Of a stretch of DNA of 64,000 nucleotides, positions 5,361-8,370 are shown piece by piece. The stretch is from positions 1,550,001 to 1,614,000 of the forward strand of contig NZ_CP016594.1 of the NCBI RefSeq assembly GCF_001698225.1, read 5' to 3'. Source of the stretch: Gordonia terrae. GTDB lineage: Bacteria > Actinomycetota > Actinomycetes > Mycobacteriales > Mycobacteriaceae. A program made the position numbers and the translations under genes. Position 1 is the stretch's first letter. Each line of letters begins with the position of its first letter. Below the pieces are notes generated by a model. It saw only the letters and a program-made list of their open reading frames with translations, was not told the DNA's origin and did no database searches.

Positions 5361-5909
5361 ATGACGTACATCCCAGAGACGCCCGAGACCCTCGAACCGC
5401 GCAGCACCGCCTCCTCCGAGTCCCCCCGTCCGTCCCGGACTCTCCGGGGATCCACCGCACTTGCTCGCACCGGCGGGGTGGTCGCCGCCATGGCGGCGGT
5501 CGGACTCGTCGCGGGCGCGTGCTCGTCCGGGGACTCCGGGTCGGGAGACTCGACCACCGGCACGACGGCGGACAGTTCGGCCGCCACCGAGGCGGCCGAC
5601 GCCGGCTCCGGCGAATACAAGGACGGCGAGTACACCGCGCGCGGTGAGTACATCTCGCCCGGTGGCCCGCAGAGCGTCGGCGTGACCGTCACGCTGTCGA
5701 ACTCGGTCATCACCGCGGTGTCGGTGGACACGAGCCAGACCAAGGGGCCGTCGCTGGAGTATCAGGGCAAGTTCGCCGGTGGCATCTCCGATGTCGTGGT
5801 GGGCAAGAACATCGACGAGATCGAGGTCGACAAGGTGTCCGGTTCGTCGCTCACCTCCGGTGGCTTCAACGAGGCGATCACCCAGATCAAGGAAGAGGCC
5901 CAGGCCTGA
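5361..5909 (+). CDS. Extracytoplasmic FMN-binding lipoprotein
   Basis: 182 residues. A proline/serine-rich N-terminus leads into a hydrophobic segment ending in a lipobox-like VAGAC (Cys54), then a Ser/Thr/Gly linker and an FMN-binding domain (about 88-180). The segment SGSSLTSGGF (160-169) matches the motif whose threonine or serine receives FMN covalently from ApbE. This predicts a membrane-tethered one-flavin electron carrier on the outer face of the cytoplasmic membrane. The next gene is the ApbE transferase that would load it, and the third is a likely membrane reductase. The N-terminal stretch before the signal is long, so translation may start further in. Confidence 0.83.
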   Translation: MTYIPETPETLEPRSTASSESPRPSRTLRGSTALARTGGVVAAMAAVGLVAGACSSGDSGSGDSTTGTTADSSAATEAADAGSGEYKDGEYTARGEYISPGGPQSVGVTVTLSNSVITAVSVDTSQTKGPSLEYQGKFAGGISDVVVGKNIDEIEVDKVSGSSLTSGGFNEAITQIKEEAQA

Positions 5910-6793
5910 CCGCACTCGGTGCCGCGCACCACTGGACCTTCGGCGCGATCGGGACCCGATGGACGATCAGTACCCCGTCGCCGCTGCCCGTCGACGTGGT
6001 CGACGCGGTGGACGCCGAGATCGACCGGATCGATCGCGCGTGGTCCCGGTTCCGGGACGACTCGACGGTCGCGGACATGGCCAGGCAGGCGGGTCGGTAC
6101 CCGATCGCCGACTCCGACCAGCCGCTCGTCGACTGGTATCGCCGTCTCTACGACCTCACCGGCGGCGCCGTGTCGCCGCTGGTGGGGCAGACGCTCGCCG
6201 ACGCGGGTTATGACGCTGCCTACAGCCTGCGCGCGTCCACCCGGGTGCCGGCCGCCCCGGCATGGGACTCCGTGATCGGCGAGCACACGGGCGCACTGGA
6301 GATCCGCGAACCGGCGTTGCTCGACGTCGGTGCTGCCGGAAAGGGATTCGCGGTGGACCGGGTGGCGGCCATCGTCGGCGCGAGCGTCGACGACTTCGTG
6401 GTCGACGCCGGTGGCGACATGGTGGTCTCGCCCCGCTCCCGCGGACTGCGGGTGGCGTTGGAGCATCCGTCCGATACGACGAAGGCGATCGGTGTCGTGT
6501 CCGTCGCCGGTGGCGCGATCTGCGCATCGGCGAGCAATCGGCGGGTGTGGGCCGACTGGCATCACATCGTCGACCCGCGCACGGCCTCACCCGCCCGAGA
6601 AGTCCTGGCGACCTGGGTGATCGCGCCGTCGGCGATGGAGGCGGACGGCTTGGCGACGGCGCTGTTCTTCACGCCGGCGGCGTTCCTGCGCGGCGACTTC
6701 GACCACCACCGCGAAGGTTTCCACCACGTGACCATCCGACGCAACGGGAGCGTCGAGCACACCGCGATCCCCGGATTGGAGTTGTTCCTGTGA
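5906..6793 (+). CDS. apbE: FAD:protein FMN transferase (ApbE), probable CTG start
   Basis: ApbE transfers FMN from FAD to a Thr/Ser of exported flavoproteins. Family blocks are HHWTFGAIGTRWTI (8-21), LLDVGAAGKGFAVDRV (138-153), VDAGGDM (166-172) and HHIVDPRT (219-226). The first ATG/GTG/TTG in frame is GTG 5996, but conserved ApbE sequence continues upstream of it. The best start is CTG 5906, which overlaps the TGA of the lipoprotein gene (CTGA) and follows GGAAGAGG (about 5891-5898) at 7-8 nt. That gives 295 residues. No signal peptide is obvious, although many ApbE proteins are exported. The gene overlaps the next one by 4 bases (GTGA), so the three genes form one translationally coupled operon. 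Confidence 0.86.
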   Translation: MTALGAAHHWTFGAIGTRWTISTPSPLPVDVVDAVDAEIDRIDRAWSRFRDDSTVADMARQAGRYPIADSDQPLVDWYRRLYDLTGGAVSPLVGQTLADAGYDAAYSLRASTRVPAAPAWDSVIGEHTGALEIREPALLDVGAAGKGFAVDRVAAIVGASVDDFVVDAGGDMVVSPRSRGLRVALEHPSDTTKAIGVVSVAGGAICASASNRRVWADWHHIVDPRTASPAREVLATWVIAPSAMEADGLATALFFTPAAFLRGDFDHHREGFHHVTIRRNGSVEHTAIPGLELFL

Positions 6794-8370
6794 CAACGCT
6801 TCTGCCGCAGCTGCTCTCGCCGATCGATGCCGCCCGGCGACACCTGACCCCGTATCGGGCGGTGCTGTGCGGGTTGGTGGTGCTGGTCGCGGTGGCCTTC
6901 GTCGTGTCCGCGACCGACGCCGATTTCGGGTACGGCCCGGACGACCTCGCGGTGTGGCTGGTGGTCGCGGTCGGGGTGAGCGCGGTCGTCGGTTATGCCT
7001 GCGCCGGCGTGTTACGGGTGCCGCCCAACTCGGACTCCTGGCTGATCACCGGACTGATCCTGTTCTTCGTGTTGCCGGGCGGTTCCGAGGACACCGCGGT
7101 GGCGACCGTCGCGGTGGGCGCCGCCATCGCCGCGGCGTCGAAATATGTTCTCGCGTGGCGTCGTCGGCTGTTCGTCAATCCCGCGGTCGCGGGCGCGATC
7201 GGTTGCTATGCGCTGGCCTATGCCGGTGTCGAGGGCATCAGTTTTCCCTTCTGGTGGGTGGCCGCCGAACCGCTGCTCGTACCGATGATCGTGGTCGGCG
7301 CCGTGGTGGTGACGCTGATCCGCGAGTGGCGGCTGGCCCTGGTGTTCATCGGTGCCTCGCTCGTCACGATCGGGGTCGTCGAGCTGGTGCGGGGTGGGCA
7401 GGACCTGTCGACGTGGGTCGTGTCGAGTCCGATGCTGTTCGTCGCGGCCATCATGCTGCCCGAGCCGCTCACGTCACCCGCCACCGAGATCCATCGGCTC
7501 GTCTATGCGGCCCTGGTGGGCGTGCTGATGCACTGCCAGTACACGATTGCGATCACCGACGCGTACACGTTGGCATTTGTGCCCGAGGTCGCGTTGCTCG
7601 TCGGATGTCTGTACGCCTTCGCGGTCCGCCTGGTGTCGGGGACCGCGCGCCGGGTGCCGCTCGACGTGGTGACCACCCCGGTCGCCGACCGGACCTACGC
7701 GGTGCGCGGTGAAGCGGTCGGTGCCCCCGCGTCGTTCCGGGCGGGCCAGTGGTCGAGTGTCAGTGTGCCCCGGTGGTCGGCACCGGTGTGGTCGGGTTCG
7801 CGGCGGGTCTTCTCGTTCGTGTCCGCGCCCCGGCAGCAACCGGTGGAGTTCGGTTTCACGGTTGCCGCGAAGCCGTCCGCGTACAAGGCGGCGCTGGTGG
7901 AGGGGACCGCGCGGCGCGCCTACGTCGACGAGATCGGCGGCGACTTCGTTCTGCCGCGGGCGTTTCCGTCCAACGGCGCGGTGGTCTTGATCGCATCGGG
8001 GATCGGCATCACGCCGTTCGTGTCGATGGTGCGGGATCTGGTGCAGTCGGAGCCGGGTCGGGATCTGTCCGGACTGACCGTCGTGCACGTTCTGCGGGAC
8101 CGACGACGCGCCGTGTACGACGATGATCTCGACAGCGCTCGGGCGGCCGGTGCACGCGTCGTGACCGTCGAAGCGCCGGACATCGCCGATGGGGTCGACG
8201 ATGCTGACCGGGTCGCCGAACTGATCGGACCCCGCGCCGCGGGCACACATTACTACGTGTCCGGCACACCGGGGTTCGTCGAACGGACCTCGGCGACGAT
8301 CCGTCGGCTCGACGGTTCCACGAGGACCCGGCCCTGGCGTGTTCACACCGACTCGTTCGCCGGTTACTGA
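6790..8370 (+). CDS. NqrB/RnfD-like membrane domain fused to ferredoxin-NAD(P)H-reductase-like domain
   Basis: 526 residues. The N-terminal half (about 22-282) has roughly ten hydrophobic segments and NqrB/RnfD hallmarks: FVNPAVAGAI (129-137) and PEPLTSPATEIHRLVY (224-239), which resembles the DPVTSP...G block of RnfD. The C-terminal half (about 290-526) is an FAD/NAD(P) reductase module with RVFSFVSAP (339-347, flavin-binding RxYS type), ASGIGITPFVSM (402-413, pyridine-nucleotide loop) and YYVSGTP. The fusion would take electrons from cytosolic NAD(P)H via FAD through the membrane to the neighbouring flavinylated lipoprotein. No iron-sulfur motif is visible. GTG 6790 overlaps the apbE stop. 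Domain calls are firm; the electron route is inferred. Confidence 0.8.
   Translation: MTTLLPQLLSPIDAARRHLTPYRAVLCGLVVLVAVAFVVSATDADFGYGPDDLAVWLVVAVGVSAVVGYACAGVLRVPPNSDSWLITGLILFFVLPGGSEDTAVATVAVGAAIAAASKYVLAWRRRLFVNPAVAGAIGCYALAYAGVEGISFPFWWVAAEPLLVPMIVVGAVVVTLIREWRLALVFIGASLVTIGVVELVRGGQDLSTWVVSSPMLFVAAIMLPEPLTSPATEIHRLVYAALVGVLMHCQYTIAITDAYTLAFVPEVALLVGCLYAFAVRLVSGTARRVPLDVVTTPVADRTYAVRGEAVGAPASFRAGQWSSVSVPRWSAPVWSGSRRVFSFVSAPRQQPVEFGFTVAAKPSAYKAALVEGTARRAYVDEIGGDFVLPRAFPSNGAVVLIASGIGITPFVSMVRDLVQSEPGRDLSGLTVVHVLRDRRRAVYDDDLDSARAAGARVVTVEAPDIADGVDDADRVAELIGPRAAGTHYYVSGTPGFVERTSATIRRLDGSTRTRPWRVHTDSFAGY

Follow-up and report, generated by a model that had tools for sequence, protein, structure and literature searches.

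A three-gene operon of Gordonia terrae with the features of an Nqr/Rnf-like flavin electron relay

Three genes on the + strand of a 64,000-nucleotide stretch of the Gordonia terrae chromosome (hereafter the window), at positions 5361-8370, encode an FMN_bind lipoprotein, an ApbE transferase and a fusion of an NqrB/RnfD-like membrane domain with a reductase domain for flavin adenine dinucleotide (FAD) and reduced nicotinamide adenine dinucleotide, phosphorylated or not (NAD(P)H). We interpret this operon as a two-protein transmembrane electron relay together with the enzyme that arms it, one of the published Nqr/Rnf-like systems, and we give this reading a probability of roughly 0.85. Gene order, the folds of the models, the loss of a covalent site for flavin mononucleotide (FMN) and the co-occurrence of the genes are direct observations. 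An earlier note on this DNA had reported a three-gene flavin electron-transfer operon, and that observation is confirmed: both gene junctions are 4-base overlaps (CTGA at 5906, GTGA at 6790). The genome is a single closed contig of 5.70 Mb. The features of the operon, in window positions, are listed below.

5361-5909, + strand: gene of the FMN_bind lipoprotein (182 amino acids), predicted to be exported and to accept electrons from the fusion
5466-5522, + strand: hydrophobic signal segment and lipobox (VAGAC, Cys54) without a twin arginine, read from the sequence; Cys54 is invariant in 26 aligned proteins
5829-5849, + strand: predicted flavinylation motif D157-K-V-S-G-S-S163, Ser163 being the presumed FMN acceptor; G161, S162 and S163 are invariant (26/26)
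5906-6793, + strand: ApbE FAD:protein FMN transferase, 295 amino acids counted from the CTG at 5906; Pfam ApbE 132.9 bits, matches to ApbE entries of the PDB
5906-5909, + strand: CTGA overlap, the presumed non-canonical CTG start of ApbE on the lipoprotein stop
6790-6793, + strand: GTGA overlap, the fusion start on the ApbE stop, read from the sequence
6790-8370, + strand: NqrB/RnfD-FNR fusion gene (526 amino acids), from Pfam and the AlphaFold model
6829-7644, + strand: NqrB/RnfD-like membrane domain, residues 14-285, without the covalent-FMN loop of RnfD, from structure alignment and profile match
7252-7257, + strand: W155-W156, immediately N-terminal to the position of the RnfD covalent-FMN loop; invariant in 110 aligned fusions
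7645-8367, + strand: FAD/NAD(P)H reductase domain (residues 286-526), presumably on the cytosolic side, carrying RRxFS, GIGITP and an aromatic residue at its C-terminus

The fusion protein

The AlphaFold model of the fusion (pLDDT 92.4, pTM 0.91) shows a membrane half of the NqrB/RnfD type and an FAD/NAD(P)H half that resembles NqrF. The membrane half aligned structurally with both RnfD and NqrB (VIA-align), and a profile match to RnfD (8ahx_D, E = 3.4e-7) extended over the second half of the membrane domain. The NqrB/RnfD fold that had been predicted for the membrane part was therefore found in the model, and the contrary case, a membrane part lacking it, is excluded. Pfam PF03116 scored 24.7 bits on the fusion, under its cut-off of 27.7, and PF00175 matched the C-terminal domain, which probably faces the cytosol, with 27.9 bits (cut-off 22). 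No 2Fe-2S domain was matched by Pfam in the fusion.

We aligned eight members of the fusion family with four genuine RnfDs encoded in genomes of the phylum (alignment A4). The RnfD loop DA[VI]xxA[TS]PL, which we take to be the covalent-FMN site, and the segment that follows it are absent from all eight fusion-family rows, where an invariant Trp-Trp leads straight into the next helix. By this alignment, the membrane domain of the fusion has lost its covalent-FMN site. A larger alignment, in which the window's fusion joined 109 of the 120 listed homologues, kept W155-W156 in all 110. In the reductase half, both Arg of RRxF[S/T] and both Gly and the TP of GxGxTP were likewise conserved in 110/110, and a C-terminal Tyr or Phe in 107/110. 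A flavinylation site on the fusion itself was considered and rejected, as its sequence contains no [S/T/A/G]G[A/S][S/T] motif.

The homologue search gave 262 fusion homologues at E <= 0.001 among 7995 scored. The named homologues at the top of the list belong to Gordonia, and the first that does not is a row labelled Streptomyces (P0024). Among the 120 homologues listed, 21 carried both Pfam domains (counted by reading). A census that needs both models above their cut-offs would hence miss many, and the 127 clusters published for such systems may be an undercount.

Genomic partners and distribution

In the whole genome, Pfam found one ApbE and one FMN_bind gene, the latter count resting on a model that misses some lipoproteins of the window's branch in other Gordonia. 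PF03116 (NqrB/RnfD) matched the fusion only, with no stand-alone copy, and PF02508 (NqrD/E, RnfA/E) matched nothing. The earlier note's statement that Rnf/Nqr partner subunits are absent thus holds genome-wide for these two families, and we rejected a complete or degenerate Rnf/Nqr complex on the same grounds; NqrA, RnfB and RnfC were not searched for.

To place the operon within the genus we surveyed 59 Gordonia species, one genome each, with a threshold of E <= 1e-60 for the fusion. The fusion occurred in 31 genomes, ApbE in 37 and a Pfam-detected FMN_bind protein in 23. ApbE lay directly upstream of the fusion in all 31 fusion-bearing genomes, and the lipoprotein lay upstream of ApbE in 30 of them, tblastn recovering those that Pfam misses. 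Among the 28 species without the fusion, 22 also lacked ApbE (Fisher p = 4e-11, which is not a strict probability given that the species are related). Two of the six fusion-less species that have ApbE, G607 and G616, carry an FMN_bind protein (SGATVTS) together with a signal-less ApbE. In G607 these adjoin a ferric-reductase-like protein with an NAD-binding domain at its end (PF01794, 72.5 bits; PF00175, 29.3 bits), which is apparently an alternative donor; in G616 the contig ends just before the position of that gene. Six other loci hold a second kind of ApbE, and no protein with a canonical FMN_bind-like motif was found near any of them. At one of these (L204, genome G609) the ApbE adjoins a NuoF-like protein (PF01512, PF10589) and a small hydrophobic protein that matches no Pfam family. 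One stop codon interrupts the fusion frame in each of G081 and G628 (TAA and TAG, respectively), representing broken copies or assembly errors, and G591 and G622 match part of the fusion only.

The fusion architecture also extends to other genera and phyla. In a phylum sample of 296 genomes, an alignment search with a threshold of E <= 1e-30 gave 30 matches. Five of them cover almost the full model, and the others lie mainly in the reductase half (counted by reading). The best 80 of 259 confirmed relatives include, outside Gordonia, Williamsia, Nakamurella, Arthrobacter, Microbacterium, many metagenome-assembled genomes of candidate phyla, Ktedonobacteria and Mesorhizobium. When 91 sequences (90 loci and the window) were clustered, the fusion was present in 90 and ApbE in 69, and 72 had an FMN_bind cluster (44 + 28); these counts miss genes, the window's own ApbE for example, through overlap rules and short contigs. 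ApbE is downstream at one locus (L055). Another (L034), titled Kitasatospora arboriphila NRRL B-24581, has clusters 12, 39, 25, 33 and 36 in common with a Williamsia locus (L033) and the window, and its species label may be wrong.

Comparison with known systems

For Nqr/Rnf-like systems, a one-way transfer from NAD(P)H to an extracytosolic FMN has been proposed (Meheust et al. eLife 2021, PMC8238504; mSystems 2024, PMC11334425). The former places such systems in Actinobacteria and the candidate phyla radiation, and the latter describes the loss of the conserved flavinylated Thr from the membrane domain as a hallmark. The window's locus is a system of this published kind, and the module is not new. 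It shares the N-terminal NqrB/RnfD-like domain fused to a C-terminal PF00175 domain, the FMN_bind subunit, the flavinylation-associated cluster and the missing covalent-FMN Thr; FMN_bind and ApbE genes are adjacent, and the lipobox Cys54 can be read from the sequence. On the other hand, the motif here is SGSS, PF03116 falls below its cut-off, and we found no mention in the covered parts of those papers of a loader without an export signal.

The operon differs from RnfD/RnfG of Rnf in lacking the covalent-FMN loop, in the absence of PF02508 from the genome and in the fusion of the NAD(P)H domain. Compared to NqrB/NqrC/NqrF of the Na+-translocating NADH:quinone oxidoreductase (Na+-NQR), it would be a one-way two-protein relay, without PF02508 and without a Pfam 2Fe-2S domain in the fusion. 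The MsrQ-like flavinylation system seen in G607 is similar in its C-terminal NAD(P)H reductase domain, FMN_bind partner and signal-less ApbE; however, its membrane domain is ferric-reductase-like (PF01794) and its motif is a canonical SGAT. A search of open-licence articles in PubMed Central (PMC) returned no paper joining Gordonia, FMN-binding and ApbE, and the genus may already stand in supplementary tables.

Proposed mechanism

From folds, motifs and gene pairing we infer the cofactors, the electron direction, the contact between the subunits and the flavinylation. The cytosolic domain of the fusion would transfer hydride from NAD(P)H to FAD, as its fold and motifs suggest. Electrons would then cross the membrane through the NqrB/RnfD-like domain by way of a non-covalent flavin and reduce FMN bound to Ser163 of the lipoprotein, from which they may pass to an extracytoplasmic acceptor. 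ApbE would serve as the dedicated FMN loader of the lipoprotein. The flow is probably one-way and ion pumping would not be required, because the return half of Nqr/Rnf is missing.

Several observations weigh against this scheme. The operon itself encodes no acceptor, nor could one be recognised in the genes found repeatedly beside it in relatives. One Gordonia species, G587, has ApbE and the fusion, but no upstream lipoprotein was found there. The lipoprotein motif DKVSGSS departs from the canonical Dxx[S/T]GA[S/T] by replacement of Ala with Ser. Finally, inspection of the window's ApbE revealed no signal peptide and no membrane or hydrophobic N-terminal segment. The earlier interpretation of the operon stands in its anatomy, namely the NAD(P)H/FAD domain, the NqrB/RnfD-like domain, the lipobox-bearing FMN_bind protein and the dedicated ApbE, and is less secure on the loader's route to its target, no export signal being recognisable in ApbE. 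The same note's covalent-FMN motif is present with Ser163 but lacks the Ala. It was also correct that the operon encodes no acceptor, and its description of the module as self-contained is for that reason unproved.

The lipoprotein exceeds the FMN_bind cut-off of Pfam, and its domain resembles SaFMN3, RnfG and NqrC, the fold match being modest; a profile search of the PDB with the lipoprotein alignment gave no match. The motif differs between two branches. In the window's branch (44 fetched loci including the window) we read AGSS 27 times, SGSS 10, GGSS 3, AGAS 2, SGAS 1 and ASSS 1, so that [A/S/G]GSS accounts for 40/44, and the three loci with Ala all belong to candidate phyla. All 30 Gordonia FMN_bind proteins found read [S/A]GSS. 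In the other branch, which comprises candidate phyla, Ktedonobacteria, rhizobia and two loci of the window's own phylum, the motif was canonical in 28/28 (SGAT 16, SGAS 7, TGAT 5). The FMN_bind protein of four Gordonia loci showed no lipobox; it looks like a secreted protein and carries the motif AGSSLTP. The published motif is Dxx[S/T]GA[S/T] or [S/T]GA[S/T]-like, with Thr accepted better than Ser, and we found no discussion of [A/S/G]GSS in the literature covered.

These motif data bear on the possibility that the lipoprotein is not flavinylated at all, binding FMN non-covalently or having another role, with ApbE a relic. Substitutions in the motif reduce flavinylation and Thr is favoured over Ser (PMC12052999), and here GSS replaces GA[S/T]. 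However, GSS with Ser163 is invariant in 26/26 aligned proteins, and ApbE keeps the triad-aligned residues and is co-inherited with the fusion in 31/31 genomes, which makes this explanation very improbable. The physiological use of the relay could be assimilatory reduction of ferric or siderophore iron. A VIT1 iron transporter occurs in six published Nqr/Rnf-like clusters (PMC8238504), and fusion-less G607 has its PF01794/PF00175 protein beside FMN_bind and ApbE. The recurring neighbours, whose clusters were named in part, include no recognised iron transporter or siderophore gene, and we consider this use unlikely. Alternatively, the relay could reduce oxygen at the outer face of the membrane to superoxide or peroxide, like an NADPH oxidase. 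Gordonia is aerobic, and in a Foldseek search with the fusion the bacterial NADPH oxidase SpNOX (8qt6) ranked second by E-value, the shared part being mainly the reductase domain. In both proteins the FAD/NAD(P)H reductase domain is C-terminal to a membrane domain; SpNOX presumably has a different membrane fold and no FMN_bind/ApbE partner. The membrane half of the fusion is an NqrB/RnfD fold rather than a haem bundle, autoxidation of the flavin can be a side reaction and no dedicated outer partner was seen, so oxygen reduction appears less probable still than iron reduction.

The start and the location of ApbE

The starts proposed by the open reading frame (ORF) lister for ApbE and the fusion clash with the domain boundaries. 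In the ApbE frame there is no in-frame ATG, GTG or TTG between 5648 and the ApbE core, and a Shine-Dalgarno-like stretch precedes the CTG at 5906. The CTGA overlap occurs at five other Gordonia loci (L172, L174, L176, L178 and L181) that also have no near ATG, GTG or TTG start, L181 having GTGs only far upstream of the core; at two more (L186 and L201) CTGA is present too, but a GTG start is available. Because the same overlap recurs in relatives without a near start, the non-canonical CTG, which may be conserved, is the likely, not the proven, start of ApbE. At the downstream junction, a 4-base overlap of fusion and ApbE at the aligned first residue was seen in 7/30 other Gordonia operons, a count measurable only where the N-terminus is alike, and many of the 30 differ there.

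ApbE aligned with solved ApbEs of the PDB and retains the residues that match the Ser-His-Asp catalytic triad as stated in PMC12052999. We screened relatives for export segments with a simple hydropathy rule rather than with SignalP. A hydrophobic segment before the core was found in none of 64 operon ApbEs outside Gordonia (70 less six that were fragments or lacked the core pattern), and a hydrophobic N-terminal segment in none of 30 further Gordonia operon ApbEs. For comparison, 24 of the 30 top-scoring ApbEs of the phylum sample have such a segment, a set biased by being the best-scoring Pfam hits. We also scored 19 ApbEs from outside this operon type, 9 of them in Gordonia and 10 in further genera of its family or class; none exceeded the cut, L250 and L207 coming near it (1.7 vs 1.9), with core and start placement rough in several and L202 read from its ORF. 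Because none of these lies above the cut either, the lack of a signal looks like a trait of the lineage, wider than the operon, which weighs against a reading in which loading precedes export.

The targets of the operon ApbEs, on the other hand, carry a lipobox, signal or membrane-anchor segment. ApbEs are generally described as exported, cytosolic ones being known for soluble or fused targets, and flavin transferases as extracellular and membrane-bound (PMC10339131). According to an mBio 2023 study, flavoproteins exported by Sec fold outside, where the cofactor is needed, and FAD must be exported since ApbEs are extracytosolic, the exporter there being EetB. That exporter (PF07456) was rejected as a supplier here, as it occurs in 0/59 Gordonia genomes; other exporters were not searched for. 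Export by the twin-arginine (Tat) route was rejected as a general explanation for pre-loading: a twin arginine lies within 12 residues of the signal core in 4/41 targets of one branch and 0/28 of the other, and within a wider 25-residue window in 9/44 and 0/28 (counted by reading; pre-start residues may be included). We found no discussion of this mismatch between a signal-less loader and an exported target in the literature covered.

One possibility, which deserves serious weight at less than even odds, is that ApbE is extracytoplasmic after all, by an unrecognised route or with a misassigned start, and that loading occurs conventionally outside. It agrees with the published descriptions of ApbEs and flavin transferases, and the non-canonical start in the window leaves room for an annotation error. 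However, the open frame here has no upstream in-frame ATG, GTG or TTG, many relatives with ordinary starts have the core within about 20 residues of the start, and the hydrophobic N-terminal segment is missing from the 64 and the 30 operon ApbEs alike. Since ApbE has no export segment while its target looks exported, the flavin may instead be attached before export. In the boldest form of this reading, which we also put at less than even odds, FMN derived from FAD of the cytosol would be joined there to a protein that leaves the cell interior afterwards, as a lipoprotein or anchored protein lacking a twin-arginine signal. This may apply here and perhaps across the class in Actinobacteria.

Neighboring genes

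A VWA/solute-binding-like protein is encoded 66 bases upstream of the operon, and proline dehydrogenase and aldehyde dehydrogenase genes lie downstream on the opposite strand; none looks related to it. Promoter and terminator scans gave no promoter-like site and terminator-like sites near chance level. Recurring neighbours in relatives were sorted into clusters, six of which were named from the Pfam match of a single member and others by eye, not all being named. The Pfam-named ones are a histidine kinase, an OmpR-type regulator, an ABC ATPase, an HlyD-type protein, an M4 peptidase and a P-type cation ATPase, and on this basis we rejected a conserved nearby acceptor gene. The Arthrobacter neighbours named by eye are lysA-, argS- and hom-like genes. 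The histidine kinase and OmpR-type response regulator lie near the operon at twelve loci of candidate phyla, rhizobia and Microbacterium, one of each protein being Pfam-confirmed; this hints that the operon is regulated by an envelope signal. At 1-2112 the window encodes a P-type cation ATPase (PF00122) whose similarity cluster, built by single linkage and possibly mixing families, flanks the operon in 12/91 sequences.

Significance

The operon offers, in compact form, an electron relay that has been little studied; for its Nqr/Rnf-like class we found no biochemistry in the literature covered. Since Pfam detects just one ApbE and one FMN_bind protein in this genome, deletions should give a clean answer about the acceptor. 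The pairing of a signal-less loader with an apparently exported target makes it a testable question whether covalent flavin is added before or after membrane crossing. If loading precedes export, an FAD exporter would be unneeded, the polypeptide would pass through Sec or some other route with its flavin already attached, and the GSS motif could reflect the changed order of events.

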